From Branchiostoma floridae (Eukaryota; Chordata; Leptocardii; Amphioxiformes; Branchiostomatidae): 64,000 nucleotides of DNA. The stretch spans positions 6,282,489-6,346,488 of the forward strand of contig NC_049993.1 in assembly GCF_000003815.2 (NCBI RefSeq), written 5' to 3'. A program made the translations under genes and the position numbers. Shown in pieces: positions 18,523 through 54,259 of this stretch (position 1 is its first letter; every line of letters begins with the position of its first letter). The notes under the pieces are model-generated. The model saw only the letters and a program-made list of their open reading frames with translations. It did no database searches and was not told the DNA's origin.

Positions 18523-21500
18523 ATGGCTTCTCCACGTAAAGATGCCTTACAAGGTGCACTACTAGTGGTGATTCTTACGGTGCTGTTCCTCCACGTCGCA
18601 GTTTCAGGTAAATGATTCATGTGTCAAAGTCAAATTAAAGAGACTTCCAAGTTTTGTTTAGTTTTCTGCCGTATCTCTTTCCTCGTGAATGTTCTAGACG
18701 GTGTTGTTTTTATTGACCTTGTGTTCTGAACGGTGTTTTCGTTGTCATTATTTGCTGTACGAAAACGCTGTAACACAGACCACCTGTCTCTGTAACGTTA
18801 CAACAGATGATGACGAGTGTGCGGAAGGGAGTGACAACTGCGCCCAGTTGTGCACGAACACGGTGGGCGGTTTTACCTGCTCCTGTTGGGAGGGGTACAC
18901 ACTGCACGCTAACGGCTGGTTCTGTCATGGTAAGTCGGCTCCTCAACTTAGCCAGAAACTAGGGACGTCCTAACATGATAAAACACTAAAGAAGACTGGC
19001 AAATACTTAAGACAATAAATATCTATGGTGTGTATCCATGTAAAACGGCACTAGTAGTAGTACATATAGTGTGCGCTTGAAATGCAAGAAGATCAATGGC
19101 ATTGGTTGCGAATTGCTAGCACTATTATCATCGTTCCTTTTGTACAGACCTTGTATGTTCTTCAACCGTGATATTTATTTCTCACTTTCATGTACGTTTA
19201 GTTACGATCTTTCTTGTTTTCACAGGCCCAAAGGTGGATCTGTATGTGGAAATGCAGTATCCCAGAGTTGACGTGACAAGTACTGGTAACACTGAGGTCC
19301 TTTGTCGGCCTACCCTGGGGGACCTGACTTTGATCAATGGCTACCACGTCGGTATCAAGTTGGACACAGGTCAGCACAAATGTCCACTCCACAATCCATC
19401 ATAGTACGGTTGTTTCGCTGTAAATGAATTTGATTTTGAAGCCAGGAGTTGAGAGTTTGGCCATGGGTCCCGGAGGTTGTAGCTCACCCGACTTGCACGC
19501 TACTGGTAAGGGCAATGCAGTTCTCTTGTATAAACCGTATTTTTAGAAGACAGGTAGCCGATATTCCTTGAAGCATTGAGGCCATAAATATGTCTTGTCA
19601 CAGCCATACATTACTAAGTACTAAGCTCTTCTAGGTCAACATTACTCTCCAGGCAGAGGTTCGACTCCGGCTGTTTTTTTAAACGTATTATGCGTTTTCA
19701 TCGGGCTTTCTACTTTGTACAGTGTTCTTTATGTCTCGCGGACGCCTATAAAAACGTTAACAAACAGCCGGAGCCGTACCTCTGCTTGGAGAGTAGACCA
19801 AGATCTGATTGGAAGTATTTTTCAGGTTACGGCACCAACATTAACTACCTGACGTACGGAGATGACTACACTAGTATAATATTAGGTTCCACGGGTAGCA
19901 GCTACGGGCTCAGGCTATTTGACGACGCCGGGAACTTCCGAGTCAACGCCTTCTCCTGCCAGACGACTCGGAATGGATTAACACGTGAAGTTATCGGCTT
20001 TACCATTCTCACTACGGGTGAGGCGCCCATAAAGATTGACAGATAGGTTTGCTACTGGAAATTGAGGTCATTCTTGCGACTGTCGTGCAGGTGTCGTATA
20101 GCTGTCTTGAGACATAAATGGTTGTGTAGCCTTTCGCCGGTCGGTTCTGATGTAGCCTAGTGGGGAGCCCAAAATCTAGTGGGGTCGTGTGGGAAAAGGG
20201 TAGAGTGTTGTCGCTTAGAAACAAGTGTTCCCGGATTCAAGTCCTGCCATGTCACCGATCTTGTGCCCTTGGGAAAGGTGTTGAAATGGGCACCTGACTT
20301 CGGTAGGGGAGGTAAAAGGCGGTGGAATCAGTAGATTGGGCTCCGCCTTCCAATAACATACCAGAGACACAATGGATAGCACCCCATTGTCCTTTAGCTT
20401 GTAGCGACTTAAAGACCATGGAACGACCTTTTGTCTGTCCTTTGTATGTTGCACTGATGAAAAACGTTGATAGTTTGAGTGCATTGCCCCAGTTTGCAAA
20501 TAAAAAAAAATAAAAAAAAAACATCCAGCGACATAAACGTACGGCGACCTTCCAATTGAAAAACAATGTTCTCTCTCCCATTGCAGCTTACTTCCACCCA
20601 CAGTCGTTCACTGTCACGGTCAACATCAACGAAACCGCGACGCTTTCCATGTTTGAGTACAACCCGGCCCCTGGCGGCCACAACGGTACTACAGAGTGGA
20701 GGAAGGACGGTTCTGTGCTGCCTGGGAGCTACACGGATTGCATCCTGGTTATTGATAACGTTCAGGTTAGCCGTTGTTAGGACAAGAACACTCAGCTACA
20801 ATACTACATGGGAAAGGTAGCAAGTTTGTGGATTTCACTTTTGTACTATTGACTATCCCGCAAAATTACTGTAAACGTTAAAAAAACAGGCGTGGATGTC
20901 ACCTTTTAAAGATAATCAAATCAAGACATTGTATTTTCCTCCATTTACGCGTTTACTTACACGTTACTATTTCAAATTCTAATTGATACTGACTGCCAAT
21001 GAAAGACTTTACCAGAATTTGTACGTGATATATATAAGCATCCTTTATATTTACTTCGATCAATCAATACAATACAGTGGAAGCCGCTTAATTGCACACC
21101 CAATTTGCCAGCGAATTCCGTGCAATTATCCGGCGTGTGCGATAATGCGGAGTTGGTCATTTAGACCGCATCACCACGGTCGGAGGGGCCGAGAGGTGGT
21201 ATGGAAGGTAGTACAACGCACAATTTATGTACGTGTTACAGTAGTGCTGTACCTGTTGTGCTCCGGACGTCATATACATCTGTATCTGTATCTGTATCTA
21301 TATAGCCGGTATAACCGCCGTTCGGCGTAACACACCAGCTTCGCAGGCACGCGGCGCGGCAGCAGCTGGTTATATTACACCGAACGACTCGTTACCCAGA
21401 ACAGAACAACTTTTGCACATCTATCTGCAAGCGTTCTTTAAAACTACCGAGAGAAGATGCCCCTACTGTACTTGGTGATAACAAGTTCCACTCTACGATA

Positions 21501-24500
21501 GTTCTGGGAAAGTACGAATTTTTGAACACATCAATCCTAGGTTGGTAACTCTGGTATTTGAAGGCATGACTGTTTCTTGTTCTTTTTTGAGCTGGTATTA
21601 GATACTTATCCGTTGGTACGTCCACCAGTTTATTGGTCATTTTGTACATCATGTCATTGGTCATTTTGTACATCATGTCTTTGTACATCATGTCTTCACG
21701 AAACATCGTACTAACCCATCAAATAGTCATTTTGATGTACTGAAGGATACTACGATGAGAATTTTAATTTTCTTGTCCCCTAAGTGTCATTTCTTTATCT
21801 TGTTTTAAAAGATGTCTGATGAAGGCCTGTATGAGTGTTACTACACGGGAAGGTACAGTGACAACAAGCAAGGCATCATGAGGCTGATCGTCAGAGGTGA
21901 GCTCTTATGGACAACATATTAGATCAGCGACTTTTTCCTTCAATTACAGACCGAAATAGTGTTAATATCTGAGAATAGATCGACTTCACCTTTACCTATT
22001 TACGCTTGTGACCGCATTGTAAATACATTTTTGTATAATCAAATTAAGTAGTCTCTACATTGTAAATACGTTACGTCTGTGATCGCATCTGTACTGTGAA
22101 CAGCGACACATGTGCTGCATTACAATGTGAACCAATTAGAATTGCCATGAAGAAGGGGACAGACGGTCACCTAAACGTTGCTAGTGAATGAAACAATGGG
22201 TGTGTAAAAATCTTTAACAATGGTTGTGTAAAAATCATTCTTACCCATGCCTTTCTCCCATGATATTAGAGTGTCCTGAAGGGAAGTGGGGTCCTCCAAA
22301 CTGCACCTCCTCGTGTGAAGAGTGTTACAATGGCGGCGTGTGTGATGACGAAACGGGGCAGTGTATCTGTGCACCTGGATTCGGCGGCTTGCACTGCGAT
22401 CTAGGTAAGATAACGTCACCGTGCCGTCAATGTTTTCTTATCACTACAATAAGATATGGTCGTAAGGAAAGCTTACAAAACATGACTCAGAATTCAAGAC
22501 GTAAAACTGTTCATTGCCACTGTTTCTATTGTTTGGGCAAGGACAAAACAACCAGCAGAACTAACGTTACACAATCGGTCACTTTGTGTTTTACATTTCC
22601 CTCCACCAGAGACTATGAAAAACGGCAATAGTGCGTTACTAACCCAAGTAATTATACTTTGTTCATGGAATGATGTTCTGTATATACTAGTACATTGTAA
22701 CTAGACAAAATATCATGTACGTTTGTGTTGTTTGAAGGCTGCTCAGTTGGTTACTTTGGAGACTCCTGTATCAGCCGCTGTGCTCACGGCAACTGTCAGA
22801 ACAAGATCGTCTGCGGCCCGGACCCCTTAGGCTGCCGATGTATAGCGGGGTTCCATGGATCTTTCTGCAACACATGTAAGGCTACCTCTGGTCTTTGAAT
22901 CAATTGTTCCCTTTTATACTGATACAATCCTATCCTGCTATCTATCCCCTTCTAAGGATAAGAATAGAGGAGTCATTCGAAGTTAGAATAAGGTGCGTAC
23001 CGAGTTAACGGGTCTGCTGAATAATGCCGTATTTGGTTTCCATTTGAATTACCAATTGCAAGCAGACGTTTTCTCCACACCATAGACTGTTCGTACGGCA
23101 CCTACGGCTCAGACTGCCTACAGACGTGCCACTGCGCCACCGGGGACCATGTGTGCAACATATACACCGGCGTGTGTAGCAGTGGTGGGTGTGCCGTAGG
23201 GTGGGAGGGCACGTCGTGCCACAAAGGTAGGTATAGTTGTACCTGGTCCTATACCTGTCACTGACACTGCCAACTAGTCCTTATATCCAGTTAGGGTTTC
23301 CAATTCATAGACATTTGTTACTGCGATCTTTCAAAGGAAGTATCATTTAACTTTAGCGAACCACGATGTTGTTTCTCTTACAAATATGCATGAATACATT
23401 TTATGTAGACACGTTGCCTGTAGTTTACCAATTTCCACCTGAATCTCCATACTCAGATGTAGACGAGTGCTCCCTCGGTACAGACGACTGTGACCAGATC
23501 TGTGAGAACGTCCCGGGAAGCTTCACCTGTTCCTGCTGGGATGGCTACATCATGGACGGCGGCACTTGTGTGGGCAAGTATCTAGACCCATATGTCCTCT
23601 TTTCTTAAGTTTAAAAATGGCCACCGCTAAACAAGGCTCATAATCGACTCCAGATCAAGAGCTACTAAGACATAAAAACCGGGTGAGTTGAATGAGTTGC
23701 GTTTTAAGTTGTATGTTAACGTTCTTTTCTATCAGAAGAAAGATTGACTCCGCTGCAATATCACTTTAATGATGATGTTTTCTTTTCCAACTCTTACATG
23801 CAGATGTGGATGAATGCACTTTGGACACTGATAACTGTGAGCACACGTGTCACAACCACGTGGGTAACTACACCTGCTCGTGTAATGAGGGCTACTTTCT
23901 GTCGAGCAATGGCTGGAACTGCACAGGTACGTTACAGACGTTTCTTTTCAATGTTATATTTATGATTTATGAAACGCTAGGGCTGGAGCATATTCTTCAT
24001 GAACCGTTTCAAGGTCCACATACATTTGATCAAGCTAGTATTTAGCGTCGGTGTAGGTACATTTGTGTATGTGTGGCATCGAAGAATAGCCCAATCATTG
24101 CCTTTCACTGCTCCTTTCAGAACCCCTGACTTCCCTCGTCATTTCTGCAACCCAGCAAGCACATATAGAAGCGTACCTGTCCTCTAATGACCAACAAGAG
24201 GTGTACTTTGCAACAAATCATGAAATAAGCCTTGCGGTGGCACAGGTAACACTACGCAACCTCATTCATATCAACGAGATGAATTGTCCATGTGAGACGA
24301 GTCTCATAAAATTACCTACGTCGCATGCCCTTTTTATGACATAGGAGTGTCTGAATTACAATGGAGTAGCATGTTGGGACAACATTTGTCTTATCCGTGA
24401 CTTTTGCTACCGTGCATAACCCTGTGCTTTATTCCATCGCAGGTAATGGGAGAGCTTGAAACTATCAACTGGACAGTAAATGGCGTCACGGCAACGTCTT

Positions 24501-27500
24501 CCTTGAATCTAACTGAAGGTGTTTACACGGTCCTAGCAACAGCAGTTAACGAGTTCTCTGAGATTTCGGCTAACATGACCCTCCGTGTTGTTGAATGTAT
24601 CCACGAAGTACGCGTATTTCACGTTGGAACCGACGACCCTACTCCGGTAGAGGTTTCCCCGCCTATAGGCTACGCTGCATGTCAGTACCCGGCTAGATTC
24701 CTTGTCTTGGTCAGACAGGTGGGTTACAACGCCAGCTATGTCGCCAGCGTTAACGGCGGTGGTCATTTTGAAATCCCAACTCCCGTGGACTCCACCCAAG
24801 CCGGCAATTTGATGTCATACCAAGGCGTCATACCCCACGACCTTTCGGAATACTACCTGGCTACATTCACGCTCACGTTTCAGGACCAAGGGCAGTACCA
24901 AGTTGTCGTCAACGGGTCAAATATCCTGTCTGAGACCGTGGCAGATGTGTCTGTAACGGCAGAGTGGCCGGTAACAAGCGTTCTTGTGACCGACAACAGT
25001 CCTGCCCAAGCCCCGGACCCCGTCGTCTTCACCATATGGCTCTTGGACTCAACTCCACCCACAGACTTGTTCTTCGATGCGTCCTATGGCGACGGCTTTG
25101 ATGGTAACGTATTGATATTTCTTATATTCAAATAAGATTGCCATAGTTAATATCATACTGAAACACATGGGTATTGGAATAGACAAATATAAAACATAAT
25201 AGCAAATAGAAAACTGCTGCAACACACATGTGATGAAGTGGATTCCAAGACAATTCTGCACCTAGACACTTTGGCCCTTTGACGACCAAGATGATTCGGC
25301 ATTAGTCCCAGGAGGGTTAACCCTAAACCCAGACTCTAACCCCTGCCACCACCCTGATGGGAACTGTTCTGATTGGCTAAGGGCCAAACTGCCAAGGTGC
25401 CGAAACGTTCTGATACCAATGATGTGGTCTCTCGCTACATAATGGAGAAGTTAGGGATTTCCTCTTTTTTCATTCTCTCCCCTGCCAGACGTCGCTTTTT
25501 ACGTTGGAGATCAGTACACCGCCATGCAGCCGGAATTCTCCATCGGGTACCTGTACTTGCCTGGATCGTATTCATTTTTCATCCGAGTGTATAACCAGGT
25601 AAGACTAAGGGCCCGGTCACATTGTCACAGTCTCGTGCGATTTTTGTGTGATCGCAAACTGAGCGCATTGTTGTGTCGGTCGTACAAGTGCCGTGCAAGA
25701 TTAAGCTGTCTTGTTCCGAAAAAGCTGTATTAGATCAGCTGTTTGCTTCTGTCACAGCTTACAAAAAATCACAATCGTTCGACGGTCCACGACGAATGTG
25801 ACCGTTCTATAATATTCTAGTCCGATAGTTGTGCCTTTAATTTGTGCAGTATTATAAACGTGCGGCACAATGAAGTAATGCAAATATTCAGGTAATATTC
25901 CTTGCTTCTCACATGTCTATGCTCAGACTCTATCTTGTAAAATGTTCATCAGGTTAGCGAGGCGTATGGGTCCATTTACGCAACCCAGGACTACCAGCTA
26001 TATGGCTTGAACCTCACGATTTCCTCTGCGTTCTCGGGAATCCACAACGGAAAGGTATTGTACGAAGGTAAGGAAAATTTACATTTATCCTCGTGGTGCT
26101 TTTTTTGTGTTTGTACAAGTCAGGGAATACTAACACCAAAACTTTCTCTTCATATTTTTTTCGTAGGTGTGAATATGACTGGACAGGGCCCAGGTGAAAG
26201 CGTCTTCGCCGGTCCCCCACTTCTCATGCCCGTGAACTTCGAGTACGAGGTCTCTCAGGGAACACAGGATGACGTGCACACGAGTTGGTAAATTCACATT
26301 ACTTTATGTATTGAATATATTGAATAGAAAGGCAAACCATAGACCAGCCTTGCCAAAGGAATAGTCACTTTTCTATGAAGAATACATTTGAATCTGACTG
26401 TATAATGTCCATGCATATGCACTGAGTAGTTAAGTACAGGTGTATTGATGACACTGTCACTTTTGTTATGAGTCAATTTCTTGATATATATTTAACCTAT
26501 CAAAGGCCCAATATGTCCTTCTGAACTCGAGTGACTATCACTTCCTAAATAAAGGTATGCACTGCAGTATATAACATATATGGCGGTTCGGTCAAAGGCC
26601 ATGCCCTTGGTGCTGAAATATGGGGGGGGGGGGGGGTCCTAAACCATGTCATGCGGGCTACATGCCGTCTCGATGGAGAGTGCGTGTGTTGGACCATTCA
26701 AAAGCAAAGGAATGAATCATAGCAATGTCCCGAGATGGTTTGGCAATTTCGGATCAACTCTGATATTATAACTCACACGGCCAAACTATTACATTTGTCC
26801 ATTATTTTGTTTTACTGGCTATGGCAAATAAATAGAACAGTGAAAGTCAGTTTTGTTCTCTAATTTGGCATTTCACCGTCTCGATTTCCTCCGCTTCAGG
26901 TGGTTTATCGGTGATGAAGTCGCCGGAGAGGAGTTGAAGCTGTCCGTCACATTTCAGGAGGTTGGGACCTACACTGTCACCGCAATAGCCTTCAACCAAC
27001 TGGCCGAGATGAGCGGTGAATCCCAGGTAAAGCAATGGCTATTTGAATAAAATTTGAAATCCAATCCATGTGAAATCTTCTACCTTATCATATATGACCT
27101 CTTTCAGTATTGATGATCAATCAGTTTGGACACGTGACTCTCGTATAAGGTCAAAGATGTCCGGAAGTCTGCACCGCCCCTCAGCTCAGTTGGGTGAGAT
27201 CTGAAATCAGTAGGCTCAAATAGTGGTCCATGAGTACAAGGAGGTTAAGTGGTTCCAAATGGCTCCTCCGTTGTAGTGACCCTTTGCAACACGAGAATTG
27301 TTGTTGATCTGATATTCTCCAGCGCGAGTGCCGTGATATGTATTTGTGATTATTTTTTACAGGTGGATATTTACGAAACTATCACTAATGTGTACGTGGC
27401 CAGCAATGATCCGGTCTTACTCGGCGAGACGATGACATTTGCTGTCTTCGCCACTTCTCCCGGAACAAGCAGTACCTTTCTGTTACAGGTAATATAATAT

Positions 27501-30500
27501 ACAGACAACTGTGTATTGAAAGACTACTAGTAATAAGGGCACTAAGGCCTGCAGTGACAATGCCTAAACATCGACATCTTGTGGGAATTAGGCAGAAGTA
27601 AAATGTTGTATGCCAAATATTACCAAAGCATGGTGACAAGATTCAAAGCAATATGCTGACGTTGATATGCTGACCCGAGACATTGATATTGTAAAGCTTA
27701 CATTGCTGGTTATCTATTACAACATACATGTAATATCAATTGTTTCATGACCTTTTATACATATCAAAAGCTGTTACGACCGTTGTCTTATGTTTTGGGA
27801 TAATAAATTCTGTTGCATTTGCCTTTCACAGTTATCTGAGGAAGACCAGAATCTGATCACCCTTACTCCGCCGTCCAAGGACAGCAACTCAGTTGCCATA
27901 GTTGAATCAACCTTTCAAGGCAGGAACTTTCCCTTTAAACTGTCGGACGTGTACGTCACCTTCTACTCCCATGTGTATCCCTCCGCCGGCACATACCGGG
28001 TACAAGTGAATGCAACGAATGCTATATCTACGGCCAACGCAGAGACAGTGGTCACCGTGCATGAAATCCCATGCTTCAGACCGCGCGTTGACATCAAAGA
28101 CGACGGGACTAGCACGGTTGTCAACCCTACAGCATACAGAAGAGACCAGGACATAGCTCTAGCCGCAACTGTGCAACTAAACTGTACTGCTGCGAATAGT
28201 AGGACATTCAAGTGGAAAGCCTATACCATGGCGGGATTGCAGTCAATTCCGTATTCGTCAAATGAGGCAACAATCAATAATGTACTCAACGGAACTACTG
28301 AAATCACCATTCCAAAGCACACGTTAGGATACGGGCGCTACATCTTGGAGTTTTCCGTAACGGAAGTTCACGGGGTGAACGGTACAGATGTGACGATCAG
28401 CAACTCAGACTACACGTGGTTCGAGATTGTTGAAAGTGCCCTGGTCACGAGAATTTCTGGAGGGTCCTTGATATCTATAGGTAGGTTTTCTCTCGAAAAA
28501 ATGTTGCTAAAGATATAGGGCAGCCAGTAGATTTTCCCCCCAAATATACCTGTTTCTGGCAATAGATCTATCACTTTGCAGGAACAAATAACAACATAAA
28601 ACAAAACAGGTGATGAACAAAGGCCTGCACGGATACATGTCGTTTCTCCACAGTTTAAGTATGGTATTATCTTTCGCATTTTCTTTTGAATCCACTCAAA
28701 ATCAAGCATGCTGTGTGACGCTAGAATGCCTGTTTTAAAGCCCCCTTCACACGAGAGCACGAATGAGCCGGAATGCCGTCCGAATGAAATTTTTTTTTCT
28801 ATTCGTGGCAATTCCTCGCAATTCGTACTGTATTCTAAACATTCTTACTGCATTCGAGATATTCGTCCCCGTTCTTTTGGCTGGCTCGAAAGTTTTTGAC
28901 ATGTTCAAAACTGTCGAAGTGCATTCGAAGTGGAGAAATATCGAATGGCATTCGTAATGGATTCTTAGTGTATTCTAACTATTCTGACTGCAGTCTGACC
29001 GCATTCTACGGCATTCTAACATTATTCGAAACATTCTTATCTCATTCGATGGAGAACCGAAACGGCAAGCCACCTCGAATCCTGACAGAATGTGGCCGAA
29101 AGAATATTTCGAATGCCGTAAGAATGTCTAGAATGCACCACGAATTCACAGGAATAGACAAGAATTTTCATTCTGACGGCATTCCGGCTCATTCCGTCTC
29201 GTGTGAAGGGGATTTAAGGCCCATTTGGAATTCCCACCCGAATGGCCCCGAATGTGGCACAAATTTTGCAAATACTTCATTCCGACTGGTTCGGCTTGAT
29301 TCCTGCTAATTCGATTTCCGTGTGAAGGCCCTATTATGGATGTTCCTTGCGACCGTGTTTGTGACCATGTTCTCCCCACGAGTAGGGCGGAATTCCACCG
29401 TCAGAATTGATGCCTCCACATCGTACGACCCGGACGTACCTGAGTCTGAGTCCACCTCAGGATTGACGTACACCTGGTCGTGTCGAATGGACAATGAGAC
29501 CTTCACCAACGACGAGAGTTCAGCCGAGTGGATGGAAGGTATGTACGAAATGAACATCCACCACTTTGTCATCGCCGTTTTACTGTACATTTATGTTTTG
29601 TGAAATGAGCACACTCGTTACCAGTTACACAGTTATCAGTTTAAAATCTATTCACTCTAGTCACATAAAAGGCCCTTTAAATTAATACAACGCTGACAAC
29701 CGGTTTGAAGAAGTTGGCCTAAACGTCAAGGCAATGGTTGATTAATGTCAATTTCAGTATTCCTTGTTCATCATCGTTCAAAACTGAAGGAATAACATAA
29801 TGTCCTCCAGCAAAGCTCACGTTATAACATATCTTCCGTTTTATTCAGGGGGCTGTTTAGGAGGCGGTAAGAGCTGGCCTGTGACGAACAACACGAATCC
29901 TTTACTAGTCATTCCAGGAGGGACACTAGATGGTGAGATAGACAAGGAGCACCCTGTCAATGATGGTATTAAGTAATTATCCCTGCGGTGTTGTGGAGAA
30001 CGACCAACAAAACGTTCAATATATATGTAGAGATATGTTTTCATGGCTGGACCAGAGTCGAACTGTAATTTCCAACACACACACAAAATAAATTACCCAA
30101 AGTTTAGACTGATCAATTACTGTCTTTGTCAGGGAATTAGCAATCAACCGCTTCTGTGACGTATATCAACACAGATGAACTTTCAGGTTACAATATGACT
30201 TCTTATATCTCTGTACAGTTGAACACAGTTGCGCTTATCTATCTCGGTCAACACACCTCTGTTTCAGGGGGAAAAACGTACGTCTTTCGGGTGACAGTGT
30301 CCAAGCCTGGTCGACAAGCCGGTGGCCACGCAGAAAAGATTGTTGTCATCGTGGAAGGCACGCCTCCGGCCCTGGAAGGGATCTCGTAAGCACAATGGAC
30401 TCAAAATCTACTAACGTTTATCATTGACTTAAGATACAGAATCACCAGATTTCTTACCGAACTCACAACGACTGACGAAAACTAGCGGATGCTAGTTGAA

Positions 30501-33500
30501 ACGTCTGACCGTTTCCAAAACCATATCTAGTTGCTTGAGTAACTGCTTTTTGGCGTATCTTATTACTTGGATGTCTAACCTTCATCGACGTAACTTACAA
30601 CCTTTTTCACGAAAAATGACTATACTTGGGCTGAATGGACACATGTCTTAGACAGTGTGTCAAAACATTGATATTGAAAGTTTGAAAAACATTTTTCACA
30701 CATCTCATCATTTCAGGTGTGTGCGGAATTGTGGACAGTACCTGAATCCTTCGGAACGTCTAGTTCTGAAGGCCAAGTGTACCGACTGCACTTCCGGAAA
30801 TCGTCTTCAGTATTACTGGAGTTTAGTGAGCAACTCTGTAAACAGTAAACAAGAGATAGACTGGGACACAGACGCACTCACGGGCAGACAGAAGAAATAC
30901 CTGTCTATTCGAAAAGGCACGTTTGCGAGTGGCGCCGTTGCGGAAACCTACACCATACGAATTGACGGTAGGTGGAACAATTATGACAGAAATCATAAAA
31001 AGGCTTTATGGAAACCATGAAATAGTATACTCAAATCCGTTGGGATGCGCACCTTGAACATATGTTCTGTGATGTGCTTATGAATTTTTCCCTGATCTTG
31101 TTTTTGAGCTGACGTTGTCCTCAGGGGAAAACGTCTTCATGATTTTAATGACGTGATAAACATACGTATTATACATGCATCATCTTACCTCTCTTTAACA
31201 ACTACCACTACCTCGTGGTTAAAGAAAATACGATGTTTGCGCCATTTTGCTTTGTCTCTGTCTATTGAGGACTTGAAATATATAATCATAAGTTTGTATT
31301 CCATTAACAGCATCCGATGAAAGCGGAGAGTCTACGTATGCACTGTACAGCTTCACGACCAATGTCCCGCCAACTCTGGGAACGTGCACGGTCGTGCCAG
31401 ACACTGGGACTGTGATGGAGACCTTGTTTCAGGTCACGTGTTCAGGATTTTTGGACGTGAACCTGCCTCTTATATACAGGTTTGCAGCCATCTCTGGTGT
31501 TGCTACCTCAACAAAGGCCTGGAAACAAGGTAAAGCAACCTTTAGTTTGCGACAAACTTACTACGTCTTGTGTTGTGATCACCTTTTCTTGACACTGCTG
31601 ACCTGTTGCGTGCCATTGCAACACTAGATCTTTACTATCTTTTATCGTCGAATATCTGTGATAGGTACAATGGTCTACTACGGCACAGACAGTACCTCTT
31701 CACCCTTGTATCTGCCTATTGGAGACGAGGACAACGATTACTTGATCACCATCGCTATCCGTGTCACAGACTCTTTTGGAGCGACTACGGAGACAACAAC
31801 AACCGCAACGGTGATGCAATAATCTTTTATCGGTTCTAAGATCGGCACCAAATATGTTTTGTTTTACAACAGATAGTCATTGTTGAAAAAAGAACTGTTC
31901 TGAAATGGTTGCCATATCATAACAGAAAAGCATTAAAGGATATGATGATTGTAGCATGGTTAGTGAAACCAAGCCAAAAGAATCTAACTAGTTTGTCAGT
32001 GTCCACCTAACATAAACTAGTAAAACGTACATTTCTCATGACATAACATAGGCAAATCATCTGAACTAACTCAGGTATGTCTTTAGGTTTTAGAGAGAGA
32101 AACGAAGGAAAATGTATCCACCGTTATCACCAACACGGAAACAACGGTTGATGCGTTACTGGAGGCTGGTAACAGTCAGGCGGCTTTGCAGTTGCTTACC
32201 TCCGTCAGCTCTACCATGAACATCGATACAACCACAGGCCAGGAGGAAAAAACTCAGGTACCAATACATAAGATATGGCCATCTAGTATCACACACAACG
32301 TTACGTGTATGAGAGACGCACATGTGTCATCATTTACTGTAAGGTCTCATCACACCATTGATTCTAAGGGCGTCTCTGTACATGTCTTGCACCACATTGG
32401 AGAGGTACTTTTCCTAACTGAGAAGATCTGAAGTCTTCGCGGACAGTATTCAGTAAAAATAGTTTAGTTCTAGAATGTCAATATGTTCCGCGAACGTTGT
32501 TTGCTAAATATCAAACTTTAAGGATAAATGCCAGACATATATGTCCTGCACAAATCCAACTTCTCATCACTTCCTATGCTTGCAGAATATATCAAATGAC
32601 TCTGTCTACAGATATTAAGTGTTTTTCGCTCTTATTCGCATATAACATCAGCTGCGGAAAGGTGCCATTACCAGTTTGAACAGGATCCCGATTAAAACTC
32701 TTGACAGTCTTCAACAAACTGCTACGACCATGGCTCAGCTTACCGAAGAGGAAACCGAGCTCTCAGGGGACGCGCAGGTTTGTAGGTTGCATAAACAGAC
32801 TTACAATGTAGACATTGATGAAACTGGGAATTGTAATTGCAACCATCAATATATCACTTTTACGTGCAGTTCTGGGATGATACTTTGTCCATTCATGGTT
32901 TGACTAGACATGGTTTAAATACACATGTATCAGTTTAACCATATGGTCTTGAAAACACTACTGTACCTACTTTTCAATAGACACGTTTATTCTATTTCTG
33001 ATCAAATTTTCAAAATTTGTTCAATTTCCCGATTTATCAGGGTCTGGCCGTATCGAAACTCGCAGAAATGACGACATTTCTGAAGGCGAAAACCGAGGAT
33101 GGAACCGCCAGCGGCCAGGCGGTGGAGGCTGCCGCACAGGCCCTGATATCCGGCCTGGCTAATGTTGTCAAAGCAGCTGCTAGGAGAACATCAACAGTTC
33201 ATGACCACTTCACGGTGGGTACAAAACTTGCAAGAATTGTAACTATGGATGTTTCTGATGAGCTACGTATCTAAGCTAGTATCTAATATACATTGAGTAG
33301 AACTGATGGTCGTTGTCAATAGTCTCTACAAAATGACAATCTATTTGATTTTCTATTTTCAAAGTTATCAGGAGTAAATTGGGCAAGCTCAAAAGTTGCG
33401 CTTAAGTTGTTAATGGTTAAGAGTAAATTCCTTAATGGCATAGCCGCCATAGTCAGAATTGCAGTCACAATATCAAAAAGTCAAATATGTTTTGCCTCAT

Positions 33501-36500
33501 TTCAGCCAAAAGTATACCCGTGGTCCTCTGCTATCTTACACCAGTCGCTGCAGACGATATCTACCGTCAAACAAGCCGTTCTGTCCACGAAAGTCCCTGG
33601 GGAGGAGCCCAAGGTACTGACCACCCCCAGCCTCGCTATCATGCTACAGCGGGACGAAAGTCAGAATTTCCGCGCAGGCGCGTACGTGCAGGAGGACTTC
33701 GGCAGTTTGTTCTCAGTACCGAGTGGGGAGGACTTGTTCAGGAACGCCACCATTCAACCCGACCAGATCATCGACATGCATGTAAGCTTCTTCCTCTACT
33801 TCCTTCACTATCGTCCGACTTTTTGCCTTGAAGTATACCATCGTTTAAAGCGATAAAAAGATTTATTTTTTCGTACACTGACAAGTTTCTTCCAGTCTTA
33901 AAGGGAGAAATGCATACCTTTGCCAGCTCGTAAATTCTGCAAAGTCAGTATTATGTCAAAGAAGCAGTTAGTTTTGTTGTCGTATCTTATTACCTGGATG
34001 TCTAACCTTCATCGACGTAAAACAATAATACCATTTTGACATAAAAACTAGCCCGTACATACAGCGCTCTTTTCCGTATCATGATACTTTGATGTCACGT
34101 CTTCTTGTTAGATGACGCACTTCAGCAACAACCCATATCAGTGGGCTACTAACAGAAGTCTGGAGGATACCGTTGTGTCACTGGAGTTCACGTCTGAAGG
34201 CCAGGACATCCCTGTACGGAACCTAACGAAATCAGTTGACATAATCATCCCTCGGGACGATAGTTCCGAGTCCTGGAGCACCGTTCGGATATCAGGAGGT
34301 GTTACAGACGTGCAGGATGTTACTGCTTTCAACACCACCGACGTCCATGTGGGTGTAAACTTCATTTTCATATTTAATCTTGATCGTTCGTGCGAATTAG
34401 ATATCCAGTATCACTCTTTTGTGGCGTCGTGTGTGGCGCAACTGTTAGAATGTTGGGCTAAGAATCTAGAGGCCCCGGGTTAGATACGGCCATGACCCCG
34501 AGGTAATGCCCTTGGGAAAGGCACTTTGCACGACTTTTCCTGACGGTGGAGTCACGTCCACCGAGCTTTATTGGCTAATCTGTCAATAATGTGCAAAAAA
34601 ATACACACGCGTATTTGGTGTGCCAATGTCCACATGTCCATTTCCCACCATAACTTTGTCATCATTCTTTTGGTTACTTTATGGTATTCTTCCTTTCAGG
34701 AAAATCAAACCTTCTACGTCTTCCTGCGATCCTCCAATCCGGCATCAGAACTAACTCTGTACCTAGGAGAAGACCAGTATCCAACATCTCTCAGCTACAC
34801 AAGCAAACAGAACCTACCTTTTGCGACTACCTATACACTTGAAGTTGCTGAAGATGGAAACATCACGGCCGACCCTTTCTTGTGGCAGCTCGGCATATTG
34901 AACACCTCTTCTGCGTATTATCTGGGTATCTCCTATAGCAACAAAGGTTAGGAGGCCCTGCAACGTTCTTTGGTTACTACCTATTTGTGTGTATCCTTGT
35001 GAAGACAAATCACAGTTTGTCTTTAGTATCTCCATTTCTTTCATTGTAACTTAGAACCACTTCTTCTCTTTCCTTACACGTACTTGCAGATTACCTGGAC
35101 CTGGAGTTATTGGTGTTCACCAGCACCTGTATCTACTATGACGAGACCACATCTACGTGGCAACGCGATGGCTGTCAGGTATGTTTATCTCGTCATGATG
35201 TTCCATGTGACCATCTTTTCGCCGAACTTTTATGGTGGAATCATTAGGTATGTTACAACGTTTTTCTAACAAATTGATGAACTCATGGATCCATAACATC
35301 CGTTATTACAGTTGTATGATTTTCACATGGATCTTATCCAACCTATATTGTTTGATAGGCTGAAGAACGGTCTAGTCCATAGAGTCAGTTGATAACAGAT
35401 GACCAGAGGGGCAATTGAAAATCGCACCAAACCATTATTTCTCACCTTACAGCTCGGACCACTGACCACACCTAGCCGCACACACTGCATTTGTGACCAT
35501 CTGACGTCGTTCGGCTCCACTTTCTTTTCCCTGGCCAACGACGTTGCCGTCCAGACTCAGACAGATGATAATATCCCCATTATCCCCATTGTCGTGGCCT
35601 CAGTGTTTGCGGTATATCTGATAGTGGCGAGTTGGGCGTACCTGAAGGACAAAGAAGATAAAGTTATGGTATGTACGTAAGAGCATCACGTTCACTTCAT
35701 ATTTGTGTATCAATTATATCAATGATCACTCATTTATATACTTGTAGTCATCATTCATTGATAAAGGTCAATCAGTGCTTTCATGCTGTTGACGTTATGA
35801 GTCACAAAAAAACTACAATAGCGAGAGATTCACACAGACATGCCATCGTGACATAGACACATGCAAAACATCACTATTGTCTTATGGGGTTCCCACAGTC
35901 AGTCTCTCTACTTTTCTCATGATCAGGTTGAAATGATGGCGGTAAAAGATCGGAACCCCAGGCACCATTATCAATATGAAGTCACGGTCGTTACGGGATA
36001 TAGAAGGAAGGCTGGAACCACGGCCAATGTCAAAATCCGGTTGATCGGAAACTATGGTGAGTGATTTCGCAGTTTTGGACTATCGTTTTTTGTCAAATAT
36101 GACACTAACTTTACATTGTTAAGAGCATGTTTGTCCAAAGTCGACCAGTCTTCATTGATTCTTGATATCATTTTGTTTATTCAAAACTTTAGGAAAAAGT
36201 AAATTCCATACCATATCGGATCCACTGGCCAATAGGAAGGTTTTACAGCGCGGAAGCTTTGACTCCTTCCTCATTGCTACTCGTCACTGGTTGGGGGACA
36301 TCAAAGACATAGTGATCCGGATGAACAGCGACGGGAAGAGCCAGTCTTGGTATGTGACTGATACGTTAGAAATAAAGTACAACAGTTATACTTGTTACAG
36401 TGTTTTGAAAAGCTGCAATTCGTGGCAAGTATAAAAGATTTATGAGCAGTTGGATCTCGTGTGAAATATACTTTGAATCAAATATTATCATTAATTCGTG

Positions 36501-38315
36501 AGTCATTTCTAGTAACACCCCCGGCATGGTCGGACTGTTATGATGCTCGTGACAGTCATTTCTAGTAAACCCCCAGAATATATATTTAGACCACTGTTTG
36601 TAACACTGAATAGGTATTTGAGCCGTGTCATGGTACGGGACTTGCGGACTGGCCAGCGGAGGCACTTCATTTGCAACAGGTGGCTAACTACAGATCAAGA
36701 AGGACGAGAGGTACAGTGTATTGGTGCAAAGCAAGTGCTGCCATTGTTTACGGCTAAAGCTCTCTTCGGTCTTCGGGACGAGCACCTCTGGCTCTCCATC
36801 ATTACACGACCTCCAAGAAGCAGGTATGGCTATTCTAGGCAAGATCCCAGACGTAGTGCATTATTGCAGGCACTAGGTAGACGCAAAATTATTGCAAATG
36901 ATTCAGAAGCTTTTTAGAATCTATATTGGTAAGAGGAAAACATTTCTACCGTATAACACAGACGTTGACGCTCCTTTCGAATCATACGTTCTAGCTTTAC
37001 AAGAGTTCAGCGGGTGACGTGCTGTCTCATCACTCTGCTGTGTCAGATGGGCGCCGCCATCATTTTCCACGGCACATCTGGAGATTCCATTCTTGGTGAA
37101 TTTCGGTTGGGATGGGAGCAGCTTATCATTGGCGTGGAGTCGGGCCTTGCAGCTTTTGCTATAAGCAGCATACTCACCGCTCTCATCAAGTCCGCTGCGA
37201 AGGAAAGCAGTAAAGAACGTCATTGTTGTGGTGGAAATGATGACATAAAAAGCACAACAAGAGAGGTGGAGATTGAAGTCTGGCTCCGTGACGACTGGCA
37301 AAAAAGGAGTGTGAAAACGAAAGTTAGGACTTGTTGCCGACGCTTTTGCAGGTGAGTCGTCGTGAAGTCGTGTTTCAAAAACTTTCTATCGCCGCGTCAA
37401 TTTTTACATTGTCGTATCGGTTCCAAATATGGTGTGCTGCACTGAAGGTTGAGTTATAAGTTCAATGTAAATGTTGGGATTATTCGTCAGTCCAAAAAAG
37501 AAGGGACTGTTCATCAGCACCCAAGATCCTCACCTAAGGATAACATTGATATTCTGTCTAGATTCTTCAATTCCCTGCCCGAACAGAATATTGCTTTTTC
37601 TCTCATCGTTTTATCCATTCAAACACCAGTAAACTCCCTTCACGGAGTTGTGGACATCTGGTATGGGTCCTGGCTTTTGTCATGTGCAGTGCAGCGGCAT
37701 CTTTCGACATTTATTATGGGATAGGCTTCGAAAAACAAGAGGCTCTCAACTGGCTGGTATACATTGGAGTCGCCTTTCTACAGGTAAGTTATGATTGGAA
37801 CTGAACGATCAAACCCATACCTAACGCCCTGGGCAGAAGCATTACTAATACATTATAAACTGCTTTTGTTACATAATGCTGATTTATCTGGCATCAAACT
37901 GAAAATCTACATCATACTTATGCCCTTAGCTTCCCTTATATTGCCCTGTCTTTAAATGTGACTGTTTTTTATTTGATGTTGATTTTTTTGCTGTATATTC
38001 ACGTAACATTCACCATATAAAACAAATCGTTGCCTCCTTAGGACCTTTTGATCCTGCAGTTCATCAAGGTTATCATAATTGCTGTCGTCAACTCCCTGTG
38101 TTGCAAAAAGTACGATGAAGAAAGCTGGGTCCCTGTTTTACCATCTGAACATCCTGCAGGTAAGTGAAACTAGCAAATCTTACTTTTCCTTTAAATTGGT
38201 TTTTGAAATTATCCTTTAGAAAACCTGAATGATTGGCAACAAATTCAACCAGTCAGTCAGATATCTATGTCACAAGTACACCTAAGTTTCTTTAGATGTC
38301 ACTAACATATATTGA
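18523..38315 (+). CDS. Polycystin-1-family receptor with EGF/Ig N-terminus, ending after TM5
   Basis: I rebuilt 40 coding exons whose phases are all compatible, giving 7140 nt and about 2379 residues. Start: ATG 18523, a basic N-terminus then a hydrophobic stretch ([16 protein letters not shown]), a signal peptide. Order: EGF, Ig-like pair, EGF and cysteine-rich modules, PKD-like repeats, REJ, GAIN with GPS, TM1, PLAT, TM2-TM5, stop 38313-38315. REJ, GPS, PLAT and this TM pattern together define the polycystin-1 family, plasma-membrane or ciliary receptors that are autocleaved at the GPS and usually pair with polycystin-2 channels. Canonical members have 11 TMs and about 4300 residues in human PKD1; here the TOP domain and TM6-TM11 are missing. 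Exons: 18523-18607, 18807-18929, 19226-19369, 19826-20017, 20587-20765, 21812-21896, then as listed in the domain entries. Individual splice choices, especially exons 4, 27 and the last, are inferred without transcripts. Confidence 0.85.
19640..19680 (+). repeat. Short B-box-like SINE scrap
   Basis: GGTTCGACTCC followed by a T run inside intron 3 resembles the B box and terminator of a tRNA-derived repeat; no matching A box is clear. Confidence 0.3.
20176..20420 (+). repeat. tRNA-derived SINE copy in intron 4
   Basis: A degenerate tRNA-like head with B box GGATTCAAGTCC (near 20232) is followed by TGCCCTTGGGAAAGG, a GACTTCGG...GGGGAGGTAAAAGGCGG body and CTCCGCCTTCCAATAAC. The same head-plus-TGCCCTTGGGAAAGG order recurs at 34428-34560. 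I recognise this as a family common in amphioxus introns. Confidence 0.65.
21075..21180 (+). mobile_element. Possible pogo/Tigger-like DNA transposon end
   Basis: The sequence TA followed by CAGTGGAAGCCGCTTAATTG then GCACACC resembles the terminal repeat of pogo/Tigger elements, which insert at TA. Repeated TTATCCGG- and GCGATAATGCGG-like words follow. No matching opposite end was found, so the call is weak. Confidence 0.35.
21280..21706 (-). mobile_element. CR1/L2-like LINE fragment with GATACA-type tail
   Basis: Minus strand 21706-21392 encodes the C-terminus of a non-LTR polymerase: a [20 protein letters not shown] segment, [11 protein letters not shown], then [14 protein letters not shown]. 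The 3' end (low coordinate) closes with a (GATACA)n microsatellite near 21282-21302. The 5' side of the fragment contains a short internal duplication of the MTNDMMYK codons. Distinct subfamily from the fragment at 16546-17270. Confidence 0.75.
22270..23926 (+). other. Exons 7-11: five EGF-like and cysteine-rich modules, all phase 1-1
   Basis: Exons 22270-22404, 22738-22875, 23086-23226, 23457-23573 and 23804-23926 each start and end in phase 1, so modules can be duplicated or lost without frame damage. The first reads like a laminin/Tie-type EGF ([12 protein letters not shown], then [12 protein letters not shown]). The second and third are cysteine-rich with a similar spacing. The last two are calcium-binding EGFs starting DVDEC. 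The donor after the fourth is GC (23574-23575) where the duplicate copy has GT. Confidence 0.8.
23574..23575 (+). promoter_or_regulatory. Non-canonical GC splice donor
   Basis: The exon ends TGTGTGG and the intron starts GCAAGT; the duplicated copy has GTAAGT at 14240. Exon phase and the paralogue leave no other donor. GC-AG introns are a known minor class with a strong remaining consensus, as here. Confidence 0.75.
24121..28075 (+). other. Exons 12-19 (part): about five PKD-like beta-sandwich repeats
   Basis: Exons 24121-24245, 24443-25103, 25489-25598, 25953-26067, 26167-26287, 26900-27026, 27363-27488 and the first third of 27832-28480. Repeats end in PKD-type strands such as [59 protein letters not shown] and [16 protein letters not shown]. 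The classical WDFGDG core is poorly conserved, so these are divergent PKD folds. Many NxS/T sites fit an extracellular location. Confidence 0.7.
26622..26636. repeat. 15-bp G homopolymer in an intron
   Basis: Fifteen G in a row in intron 16; prone to length error in sequencing. Confidence 0.9.
28739..29206. mobile_element. Non-autonomous DNA element with about 40-bp inverted ends, intron 19
   Basis: The left end CCCCTTCACACGAG with GAATGAGCCGGAATGCCGTC is mirrored at the right end as GACGGCATTCCGGCTCATTC and CTCGTGTGAAGGGG. The interior is a degenerate run of ATTCT/GAATG words and encodes nothing. The flanks TTTTAAAG and ATTTAAGG may be an eroded 8-bp target duplication, which would fit hAT. 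A further CCGTGTGAAGGCCC at about 29316 suggests a nested or second terminus. Confidence 0.65.
30465..30605 (+). repeat. Dispersed intronic repeat, copy 1
   Basis: Contains ACTAGCGGATGCTAGTTGAA, an ACGTCTGACCGTTTCC block, GTAACTGCTTTTTGGCGTAT, then CTTGGATGTCTAACC and TTCATCGACGTAA. Parts recur at 33975-34022 (same strand), 47655-47770 and 51225-51325 (opposite strand). Noncoding family, class unknown to me. Confidence 0.65.
33975..34022 (+). repeat. Dispersed intronic repeat, copy 2 (3' part)
   Basis: GTATCTTATTACCTGGATGT then CTAACCTTCATCGACGTAAA matches the end of the copy at 30465-30605 with one or two changes. Confidence 0.65.
34428..34560 (+). repeat. tRNA-derived SINE copy in intron 30
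   Basis: A-box-like TGGCGCAACTGTT (34434), an eroded B box (GGGTTAGATACG), then TGCCCTTGGGAAAGGCACTT shared with the copy at 20176. It lies in an intron of the polycystin-like gene in sense orientation. Confidence 0.6.
35927..36823 (+). other. Exons 34-36: PLAT domain
   Basis: Exons 35927-36056, 36193-36349 and 36614-36823. The PLAT (LH2) signature is clear: [21 protein letters not shown], then a [13 protein letters not shown] segment, [28 protein letters not shown] and [10 protein letters not shown]. In polycystins this intracellular domain sits between TM1 and TM2 and binds phosphoinositides or partner proteins. Confidence 0.9.
37004..38159 (+). other. Exons 37-39: TM2 to TM5
   Basis: Exon 37004-37351 holds TM2 ([18 protein letters not shown]) and TM3 ([21 protein letters not shown]) and a basic loop. 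Exon 37630-37783 holds TM4 ([20 protein letters not shown]) and the start of TM5. Exon 38042-38159 continues it ([19 protein letters not shown]) and ends [13 protein letters not shown]. This matches the TM2-TM5 part of polycystin-1 relatives. Confidence 0.8.
38296..38315 (+). other. Predicted terminal exon: five residues then TGA
   Basis: The phase-1 acceptor TTTCTTTAG at 38295 leads to codons for DVTNIY and a stop at 38313-38315. Two other AGs just upstream give the same frame or an earlier stop. No exon resembling a TOP domain, TM6-TM11 or a coiled coil is visible between here and the oppositely oriented ATPAF1 gene at 39561. No clear AATAAA seen in that gap. Confidence 0.55.
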
Positions 38316-38325
38316 CCATCCTCAC

Positions 38326-38500
38326 AATGTTGCAGCTGTGGAATCGTCTCACAATGTTGCGGCCGTGGAATTGTCTCAAAATGTTGCGGCTGTGGAATCG
38401 TCTCACAATGTTGCGGCTGTGGAATCGTCTCATAATGCTGCAGCTGTGGAATTGTCTCAAAATGTTGCGGCTGTGGAATCGTCTCACAATGCTCTGGAAT
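38326..38500. repeat. 27-bp minisatellite, about 6.5 copies
   Basis: The unit AATGTTGCGGCTGTGGAATC plus GTCTCAC repeats in perfect 27-bp register from 11 bp after the predicted stop. In one frame it encodes a nine-residue repeat, NVAAVESSH, in an ORF from ATG 38296 to 38514. That frame does not join the upstream exon, so I treat the repeat as 3' UTR. Confidence 0.9.
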
Positions 38501-39560
38501 TGTGGACACTGTAATATCAGCTCTCTGACCTGCCAAGACTACACAGATGTGCAACAAACTCTGCTGTCAGATGGTATCAACATCTCAGCTGAACAACAAA
38601 TACTCCAGTACTTTTGGTGCACATTTTGCCATACATATGGTGTGACAAAATTCTTGATAACAGATGTTCTCTTTGACAGAGAACTATATTCTCTTTGACA
38701 GAGAATCCAATAGATTAACTTTATGTTTCTCAATGTGCACATTTCTGATGATCTAGCAATGGAGACGTTTTAGTCTTTTTGAAAGTTTCAAGATGTTTGC
38801 ATAAATAAGAAGGCATTTTCTTGATGACTGTTTTTCTTTAGGGCGAAAATCAACGACATAGAACAGTCTCATACTGAACCTGTTATACAATTTCCTATTG
38901 TTTGTTGTTCGTCTTTCTTTGAATTCTGATTCATTTCAATTATTCAATCAACACAGTTGTAGTAAAGAGTTGTAATGTAGAGGTAACTTTGACATTTCCT
39001 TGATTCTTCAAGATCAACATGTACCAATAAGGTTTGACAAATAGTACTAGTATTTCAAAGCTACATGCATCAGAAATAAGACTTGTAGGCTGTACAAGGT
39101 ATTCAATATATCTACAAAATGTTTGCACTTATAAAGTGCAAAAGGACCTTGTGTAAAATCCTAGCAGCTTGGATGCTACTGTAAAACCCATGTTGGTTCA
39201 TAGCAAACAGCATTTATTCTAGGAGGCAAATTTGGGGTGCACAAAAATCCAAATACAAGCTACCAATGAAAGTGTACATGTAAATTTGATTTTCTCGCTT
39301 AGTGACACTTAATTTACACCATTAACCTCCATCTTCAATTAGGGATGTCCACTCAGCATCAGATGGCCCTTTTTTTTAGAGGAGCCACATCTTGATCATG
39401 CTAAAAGAACCTTTCACCCTTATTGATAAGAGTAGGGGTCCTTTTTGGGGTGAGTGTGTTATGCCTTATAAAGGCATAACACACTGACCCAGTTATGTGA
39501 ACAAACAAAAGTTAAACTAAAAGGTTTTAAAATAGACAGCATGTCCTAACATGCACTCCA
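38501..39560. other. Region between two convergent genes
   Basis: No exon or repeat family recognised. A 17-bp phrase, TTCTCTTTGACAGAGAA, occurs twice in tandem with a short spacer at about 38668-38705. The segment must contain both 3' UTRs. Confidence 0.5.
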
Positions 39561-42500
39561 TCAGTCAGTCTTGTCTGGTGTCGACTGTCCCCCCAATGCT
39601 TCCAGTTCCTTGATCAAGACCATGTGGTCAAACTCTGTGGGCTTTACGGTGAAGTTGCGGACGATGCTGAACCGCTGGTCACTCCTGGCCGTATAGTACA
39701 TGGTCATCTGGTCAACAAGAAACTTAGCCTCTAGTGTGGTCTGGGAAATGAACAAAGAGCAATGCTTTATTTCAAATTTGTAAAGACACTCAAAAAATTT
39801 TAAGTCAGCTACGTTTTGACGGCAAAGCAAGAATTTAAAATAAAGAAGAGTAATGCCACACAATCAGACAATGAACTGATATCTCTAACTAAGCAAAAAC
39901 AGGAAAAATAAAAATACTTACCAGCACTTTCGTGTCCACCTCTGCCTTCATTAGTACAATGCCTGGAATGGAAAAAAGTGATATGATGTTTAACTTGTGA
40001 CTGAGTGCAAGCTGACATTATTACATTCTGGAGGAATTGATATGACAACAATGAAAGAGATCTATCTATTCAGCATATTGACATTTTCCATCATTATTAT
40101 AATAATCTTACCTTTCTCCTCTGCAAGGTCAGGGTAGTGCACCAACTGGATACAGCTGGGGGCATTCTCTTTGTGAGTCTGTCAGATTCAGAAAAGTCAA
40201 AGAAATTTAAAGATAGGCTTTATTTCTGTCCTTATTGTTGAAATCCAAGTTGCTGTCTTTGATTGGTGTCTTTGATTATCATCATCATCATCAGTTGGCT
40301 GCAGCGCAGGGGACTGCAAGCTTCTTCCAGTTCAGTCTATCGGCAGTGAGATAACAAGACATTTAATATGTAATGCATCTAATCATTAGGGTTGAAATCT
40401 AAGTTACTTTATATCTATTTATTGAGTCACTCTGCTTACCTGGAAGTTGATGAGGGGAGTGAAGTGGCACTCTTGGCCTGAGAACTGTAGCAGGAAGAAC
40501 TCATATCCCTGCTCCCTTGGCATGGGCAGCAGAAACTGGGGAAGGAAATGGGCAGTCAGATGACAAAAACAGAATAAAAAATACAACATATGAAGTAATT
40601 TTTGTAACAAAGGACATCCAAAGAAAATGTAGCTGCATTTGCTGATCTCTATTCATTTGTATGTGAGGCAGAGATGACATAAAAATCTGGAATTGGGGAG
40701 AACCCCATGTGAGCCTCTTGCCTTCTTCACTTACCGTTGGGCACATGTTTGTCCTGGCATTCAGCACAGCATACGTGTCTTTCTGCAAAATAGGTCAATT
40801 CAAAGAGTTAATGGTGAACAAAATTAACTGTGCAAATTGATAGGATATATATAAAAGAATCATTTCTCTCCTGTACCAAAAAGTTATTTAAAAGGCCCAC
40901 TTGAATTTTGCTCTTTCCCTTTGCTGTGGGCTCAACTCTATATCAAACATTACATCAGTTAATGCAGGGATCACCAGGGTAAGGGTTATGATAACTTACG
41001 GGGATGACAGCACACAGAGCATCCTTCTGGGCATGGTAGTCTGTCCAGATCTGCAGGGGAAGAAATAGTTGAGTCTTGGCCTCTTCAAGATCATCACTTC
41101 TCTGTACACATTTCACAACTGTTACAGTATTTGTGAGCATTATGGTTACTGTGTTGGATTCTATCTTTATCTTGTACTTGTGCTGCAGTCTACAGTCCAT
41201 AGGCCATCCCAATTTATTTCCTTTGTTCTTATACATTTCAAAGTAAAAAAAAAACCTCTCAATTTATGTCAAGACAAATACAAAATGCTTCCTGACCTTG
41301 GCTATCTCCTCTGCTGTCTTGTCCTGGATTAGATCAGTTCTTAGCACAGCGTCCAGCTTCTGTATAGATAAGACAGATGATAAGACAGATGATATCATAA
41401 ATTGACAGACAGATATAACAATCATTCCATATATTTAGCCAACAAAATTAGCATGCCTAATATTACTAATAAATTTATAATATGCATCAAATCATGTCAT
41501 AAGTTGAGTATTAGTATGTTGAGATGACAGACTTAAGGATGTAAGGCTGGGGAAATCAGGTGGTTTTACAGGTGGTTCTACAGGTGTTCTTTACGGGTGG
41601 TTTTACAGGTGGTTTTACAGGTGTACCTTGGCACCTGCCATGGAGAAGCTGCCACGAGATGATCCTGTATCCTGCTGTGCATTCTGGGAAAACCGTGGAT
41701 TGCTGCCCATCCAGTTCATCTACAGGGAAGAAGCAAAAATGATAATGTAATGCTTGATTGTTATGTTTTCTTAAACATATCTAAATTCAGGTCCTAGTCA
41801 CTTGTGGCATACAATAATGTACACATGGACCATCTGATCAGTATTTTGGTAAAATTGTAATTGATATCAGCCCTACAGCTTTCACTATGGCCCCCTTGCT
41901 ATGTCTAAACAGTCAGTCCTATATGAGTCACATATGGCACATCTGTAACAGTATAAGATGACTAAGGTTTATTGCATAGTTTCTTTCTCTGGATCTGCTT
42001 TTTTTGCATCAGTGCCATAATGCATTTTACTAATTAATATGACTGTGATAAAAACAATTGAATTAATTCAGAAGATTCCCGTACCTGCTCCTTGATGGCT
42101 TCCTTGTTGGCTGCAGAATCTGCACGCTTCTTCTGTTGTCTGTCCCTTTTCTCTTGCACAAATGCCTCATACTCCCCTGGGTTTTCTCTACAAAATACAA
42201 TATGAGATGAAGGTATCTACTAGTTCAATGATTGTATATGTATTATTTACTAATTGTGCATGACAAGTGCATAGCAGCTTCAGTCAACATACTTCAAATG
42301 AATACACAACACTCATCATTTTGAACTGGAAAGTCATTTCTAGAATAATCATATTATCAGCCTCAACACAAACTAACATGACTACCAGTTTCACAGTATT
42401 CATGAATATTGGCATTTACCTGGGCATGTCCAAATTATTTACTGTACAGTGAACTCTTGGTGGTAAAGTGAAGAAGAGCATACTAGTACATGTATATAGC

Positions 42501-46231: not shown

Positions 46232-46235
46232 CTTG
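46224..46235 (-). promoter_or_regulatory. TISU-type start context (CAAGATGGCGGC) of ATPAF1
   Basis: The minus-strand sequence around the ATPAF1 start matches the TISU consensus SAASATGGCGGC at every position. In mammals this motif directs scanning-free initiation on very short 5' UTRs, binds YY1 for transcription, and is enriched in mitochondrial genes. A transcription start within about 30 nt of the ATG is predicted. Confidence 0.7.
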
Positions 46236-54215: not shown

Positions 54216-54259
54216 GCCCTAGCATGACTAGTGATTTCAAACAAAATGGTGTAGTGAAA

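Follow-up and report, generated by a model that had tools for sequence, protein, structure and literature searches.

Members of the PKD1/REJ family are defined by the REJ domain, in which six cysteines are conserved (PMC1934368). In human polycystin-1 and the PKD1-like proteins, the PKD region, the REJ domain, a GPS with an HLT motif, a first transmembrane segment (TM1), a PLAT domain and TM2-TM5 follow one another along the chain, and the 11-TM layout is completed by the TOP and channel domains. The head of polycystin-1 is composed of LRR, WSC and C-type lectin modules, a set given in this form for zebrafish pkd1a (PMC5318412). The sea urchin SpREJ proteins belong to the same REJ family, carry variable heads (with one EGF in SpREJ1) and have 0, 1, 2, 6 or 11 TMs; in the available part of the source, an Ig/Tie-type block does not appear among them and none of ten has five TMs (PMC1934368).

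Lancelets display unusually high exon shuffling, biased towards phase 1-1 exons, and they are known for the gain of many new domain pairs, which lowers the surprise of meeting one more (PMC4284660). A lancelet PKD1L2 is mentioned as the neighbour of another gene, with no architecture given in the part of the source available (PMC10199209). Our literature search, which combined polycystin, REJ, PKD1 or Tie with lancelets and covered mainly freely available papers, did not find a Tie-polycystin combination among the papers listed, and the protein may already stand unnamed in a lancelet protein database.

Here, we describe a lancelet gene found in a stretch of 64,000 nucleotides (the window) on contig C15. 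It has the polycystin body listed above, in the identical order through TM5, and it differs from polycystin-1 in having a Tie-like Ig/EGF head instead of the LRR/WSC/C-type lectin set and in that TOP and channel domains were not found. Judged from its sequence, this Tie-type head on a channel-less polycystin body would be a real new combination of known parts. The locus is probably best explained as a single polycystin-1/REJ-family receptor gene to which the head was added by shuffling of 1-1 exons and from which the channel end was lost.

Gene model

The window gene comprises 41 exons at 18523-38305 on the forward strand (as are all features below unless noted) and encodes 2421 amino acids (aa) with consistent phases and zero internal stops. 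A sequence-only reading of this DNA had proposed 40 exons at 18523-38315 that all keep phase; its start and its continuous frame stand, now over 41 exons, while its end and exon count are replaced. The model was obtained with a gene finder using self-trained codon scores, after which four exon edges were corrected by hand and the last exon was added. It scores 601, whereas the reverse strand reaches 103, an equal-length downstream stretch (38600-58520) 80 and 20 dinucleotide shuffles at most 51; because the window gene itself supplied the training data for the codon model, this control is partly circular and serves as support only. The intron after exon 11 is of the GC-AG type, with a GCAAGT donor at 23574. 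An independent test of the model is offered by a paralog on contig C4, which is collinear with the window gene over aa 19-2391.

The sister gene on C4

The sister gene occupies C4:9854497-9880779 (L017-L020), contains two assembly gaps, and encodes a Tie-like head, a polycystin body, a TOP domain and a channel. In a search that required the phases of the window gene, 36 of its 41 exons were found in the C4 gene. A gene-finder run made without the C4 alignment, its codon model likewise trained on the window gene, gave both ends of 30 of these 36 identically, 29 in the same phase (exon 8 being the exception). Five of the remaining exons share one identical end, and one, exon 38, shares neither; the search recovered it solely by accepting a poor donor, and the gene finder does not confirm it. 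A good C4 counterpart is missing for exons 4, 12, 28 and 41, i.e., a short exon, one of two tandem EGFs, an exon whose place is a C4 gap, and a window-specific exon, respectively; exon 37 is represented in C4 by two exons.

Over the 433 head codons compared, the two genes are 62% identical; in the body, over 1757 codons, the figure is 50%. Counted without exons 4, 12, 28 and 41 (chosen) and 37 (no phase-matched C4 exon), pN is 0.18-0.41 versus a pS of 0.68-0.80 in every segment compared, with synonymous sites near saturation.

These data bear on whether two adjacent genes, a Tie-like Ig/EGF gene and a REJ gene, were wrongly fused by exon chaining. The join is known here from genomic DNA, and Ig-EGF blocks with no REJ nearby do exist elsewhere in the genome (at least 156 matches to the block). 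Set against such a fusion, C15 and C4 display the Ig/EGF and REJ parts in identical order and orientation, and a partial third copy at 12094-16545 of the window keeps exons 7-14 in order, including the EGF-to-PKD junction. Introns 12 and 13, which flank the first PKD-side exon, are 194 and 197 nt long and would leave little room for a gene end plus a gene start. Because the C4 gene is collinear and shares most splice sites at near-saturated synonymous divergence, the two parts are unlikely to be adjacent genes joined in error, and we regard such an error as extremely improbable. Best supported is the earlier proposal of one receptor gene of the polycystin-1 family whose N-terminus is of the EGF/Ig type, presumably expressed as a single transcript. 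The observed EGF/Ig plus polycystin-1-family structure is confirmed as real, in a gene known here as a predicted model.

The Tie-like head

Exon 1 (18523..18607) provides the start codon and a predicted signal peptide (MASPRK...HVAVS, hydrophobic over aa 9-27); its counterpart in the C4 paralog is a candidate ATG exon of equal phase with 14 of 28 residues identical. Exon 2 (18807..18929) encodes a calcium-binding EGF (EGF_CA, E=4.5e-9, aa 29-64). It is followed by an Ig1-like module (exons 3-5, 19226..20017), Ig2 (exons 6-7, 20587..21896; V-set, E=1.3e-6), three Tie-type EGF modules (exons 8-10, 22270..23226) and two further calcium-binding EGFs (exons 11-12, 23457..23926; EGF_CA, E=4.9e-17, two stretches).

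A phmmer search against PDB sequences placed Tie2 first (2gy5, 121 bits, E=4.6e-34), with the best non-Tie chain at 28 bits; the match runs from midway through Ig2 to the last of the three EGFs. When a two-sequence profile of the window gene and its C4 paralog was used, the single Tie2 match (E=9.4e-35) aligned query residues 107-355 with Tie2 residues 75-318, so that collinearity runs from the end of Ig1 through EGF3, and 67 of 164 columns shared by Tie2 and the window block are identical. With EGF1 and Ig1-Ig2 alone, phmmer found contactin-5 as the best match (1.5e-6), and Tie2 was not among the best 60 of 181; the link between Ig1 and Tie2 comes only from the two-sequence profile. Exons 3-5 are also similar (33% identity) to the leading Ig-like portion of L024, a gene with an Ig-Ig-EGF-fibrinogen layout described below.

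The order Ig-Ig-EGF-EGF-EGF is shared with Tie1 and Tie2, Ig1 being matched in its C-terminal part only. In Tie receptors, FN3 repeats come after the EGFs. The window gene differs in that the block is followed by the polycystin body: a Pfam search of aa 1-1566 and 1667-2421 with a cut-off of E=1 gave no FN3 match, and no tyrosine kinase domain was found with Pfam at E up to 0.1 in the forward frames of 18.0-52.5 kb. On the strength of these matches, the Ig/EGF block is by sequence specifically Tie-type rather than generic, which adds a Tie-like identity to the EGF/Ig N-terminus noted in the sequence-only reading. The Ig pair of that reading is matched by Pfam in its second member, while the first is without a Pfam match of its own and is placed by the Tie2 profile. 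What had been called "five more" EGF or cysteine-rich modules resolves into the three Tie-type EGFs, which taken singly lie under or close to the Pfam thresholds, and the two calcium-binding EGFs.

The polycystin body

The Pfam search of the window protein was made in ten pieces that cover aa 1-1566 and 1667-2421, and the domain types named earlier (EGF_CA, Ig, EGF-type, PKD, REJ, GPS and PLAT) are all matched in it. The PKD-type region extends over exons 13-20 (24121..28480), with PKD matches in two stretches of the piece aa 836-1087 (E=5.9e-14) and a weak match (0.0014) in the piece aa 509-835. A structure prediction of exon 14 alone had a mean pLDDT of 39 and was discarded. The REJ domain, by which membership of the polycystin-1 family is recognised, starts inside exon 20 and is near full length (aa 1081-1546, exons 20-27, 28165..32197), matching positions 1-450 of the 452 in PF02010 at E=1.5e-99.

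Exons 28-33 (32652..35178) encode a region that we call GAIN-like from its location between REJ and GPS; apart from GPS it has no Pfam match in the pieces (aa 1567-1666 being covered by a frame scan only), and its identity with the C4 paralog is 46% over exons 27 and 29-33. Exon 34 (35453..35668) holds the GPS (PF01825, E=2.4e-8), with the sequence CDHLTSF at aa 1963-1969, ahead of TM1 (aa 1990-2008, from hydropathy). The HLT motif within it (aa 1965-1967, 35498-35506) agrees with the HL|T/S of the family. The PLAT domain follows directly after TM1, as in family members (exons 35-37, 35927..36823; E=1.6e-20), and a match to human polycystin-1 (6a70, E=4.3e-32) spans TM1-PLAT-TM2.

The last 234 aa yield zero Pfam matches and contain four hydrophobic regions, which are taken as TM2-TM5 (exons 38-40, 37004..38159) from hydropathy, the C4 paralog and a second, weak 6a70 match (4.9 bits). 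Exon 41 (38220..38305), a short terminal exon with the stop codon, was placed solely by splice signal and phase; having no detected counterpart in the C4 paralog, it is the least certain exon. In total, five hydrophobic TM regions were found in place of the 11-TM layout with TOP and channel. The assignment to the polycystin-1 family is retained, for a shortened member. The missing channel end, like the partial duplication of the gene at 12.1-16.5 kb, is new relative to the sequence-only reading.

The channel end

In the C4 gene, TM5 is followed by matches to Polycystin_dom (1.9e-27) and PKD_channel (1.8e-31). Neither domain was found by Pfam in the forward frames of 34.0-52.5 kb of the window, and when the C4 tail was compared by tblastn with both strands of the entire window, the matches were at chance level only (E 1.9 and 7.7). 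There are no N runs in the window after base 2901. The C4 tail was also used to search the genome, with 83 of 278 candidates scored; none of the matches listed lies near C15:6.3 Mb, and those listed on C15 are at 18.3-18.6 Mb. The others listed are C4 itself, a 52%-identical relative on C4 at a distance of some 140 kb, and matches of at most 36% identity, with the exception of one 79-residue piece at 41%. As the channel tail was not found, five TMs are expected for the window protein.

It could be argued that the window gene does encode a channel end, in distant or missed exons: exon 40 ends in a strong GT donor, the C4 exon at that position also splices onward, and the Pfam scan of forward frames reached only to 52.5 kb. 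This is very unlikely in view of the tblastn result, which had nothing better than E=1.9 on either strand, of the lack of a tail near C15:6.3 Mb among the matches listed, and of a nucleotide-sugar transporter gene that occupies 48.6-52.3 kb.

Alternatively, the gene may have been inactivated recently, i.e., it became a pseudogene on losing its channel end, and its frame has yet to decay. Consistent with this, the channel end was not found by Pfam or tblastn or among the matches listed in the genome search, a broken fragment of the window gene adjoins it, so that the site has been rearranged, and a minisatellite starts 16 bp beyond the stop. On the other hand, 41 of 41 exons are intact. Amino-acid conservation relative to C4 is strong, yet it is a long-time average with which a recent loss is compatible. 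We judge a recent inactivation unlikely, though less so than a hidden channel end, and favour an intact gene that presumably lost its channel rather than never having had one. Such a shortening is not new in kind, because sea urchin relatives with 0, 1, 2 or 6 TMs have been published (PMC1934368).

The 52%-identical relative on C4 (L033, 10020095-10022334, reverse strand) encodes a polycystin TM6-TOP-channel tail. It was considered as a possible source of the lost channel end and is not claimed as such. In the 14.7 kb that precede it (4279 bases of which are N), no PLAT/TM2-TM5 relative scored better than E=1.9; a tail with no detectable core, it mirrors the tail-less window gene.

Origin of the head and its relatives in the genome

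Phase 1-1 exons make up 9 of 11 exons in the head (exons 2-12) versus 3 of 28 in the body (exons 13-40; Fisher p=4.7e-5), and the two remaining head exons together form one 1-1 pair; this agrees with the phase bias of shuffled lancelet exons (PMC4284660). A Tie-type Ig-Ig-EGF-EGF-EGF block flanked by calcium-binding EGFs probably joined the PKD-REJ-GAIN/GPS-PLAT body by shuffling of these symmetric exons.

Relatives were sought in a genome of 513,431,437 bases on 431 contigs. Those of the Ig-EGF3 block are common (the at least 156 matches given above, from 150 of 434 candidates scored), and the REJ search returned at least 91 matches (93 of 125 candidates scored), grouped into 39 clusters. An Ig/EGF block lies within 40 kb of two of these 39 clusters, the window gene and C4, among the matches listed; given this scope of the count, further Tie-polycystin genes are possible.

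The block also occurs on other bodies. One locus (L022, 344-3166) is an intronless receptor tyrosine kinase of 940 aa (kinase E=3.3e-63) whose Ig-EGF3 block is 38% identical in a query-anchored alignment; here, the kinase replaces the polycystin body. In L024 (C15:10.287-10.290 Mb, reverse strand), Ig-Ig-EGF exons, 49% identical in the same type of alignment, are followed by a fibrinogen domain (Pfam E=8.6e-52) in place of the polycystin body, so this gene apparently combines a receptor-type head with an angiopoietin-type ligand domain. The Tie-type block is seen here as a movable unit on three bodies (kinase, fibrinogen, polycystin) within one genome. Many long open reading frames similar to the kinase gene are seen on C8, C12, C18 and C7 among the matches listed. 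A further locus, L025, has a downstream stretch like that of L024; the 80% match reflects similar DNA, and the fibrinogen Pfam match was obtained in L024 only.

A cassette tree groups the window gene, its partial copy and C4 (support 0.948); because its alignment is query-anchored and the pieces from L024, L025 and L031 are poorly placed, it is used for this grouping only.

Possible mode of action

A soluble fragment from the N-terminus of human polycystin-1 has been proposed as an activator of the PC1/PC2 channel (PMC7728438); for the agonist in the stalk, a link to the TOP domain and pore loops has been described (PMC9672506). The latter route is not simply transferable, since TOP and pore loops are absent from the window protein, which keeps the cleavage motif and stalk and might signal via TM1-5/PLAT or modulate another polycystin.

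A working scheme begins with the putative ligand-binding head, which would bind a ligand or an adjacent cell. The protein may cleave itself at HL|T, as the motif suggests, and the halves would stay associated until they are pulled apart by binding or force, whereupon the membrane half (TM1, PLAT, TM2-5) could signal without a pore of its own. Alternatively, that half may regulate the C4 sister, which keeps its channel end, or a PKD2 partner. More tentatively, and with little confidence, one may envisage a small lancelet Tie-polycystin subfamily whose polycystins are the targets of angiopoietin-like (fibrinogen-domain) ligands; the C4 product would then be a channel subunit gated by ligand, and the window product its channel-less, autocleaving partner or decoy. 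As a natural swap to a Tie-type head, in one gene with a channel and one without, the two genes provide a testable pair for separating the roles of head and pore.

Surroundings of the gene

In the Ig-EGF block, 149 of the 172 columns that the partial third copy shares with the window gene are identical (87%), and over 198 codons (exons 7, 11, 12, 13 and 14) dS is 0.19 and dN 0.085; exons 8, 9 and 10 were dropped from this count, being below 60% identity in an ungapped comparison. Because it is broken in exon 9 and ends 51 aa into exon 14, the copy is most likely a dead fragment. It starts where a satellite array ends: in positions 1-12085 of the window, a 183-bp unit is repeated 66 times (93% matches), with two N runs within, and the 10 kb upstream of the window are all N. 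On the other side of the gene, the minisatellite beyond the predicted stop has a 27-bp unit and extends over 38321-38491, and the next recognised gene downstream is that of the nucleotide-sugar transporter (PF04142), with exons at 48640-52267.
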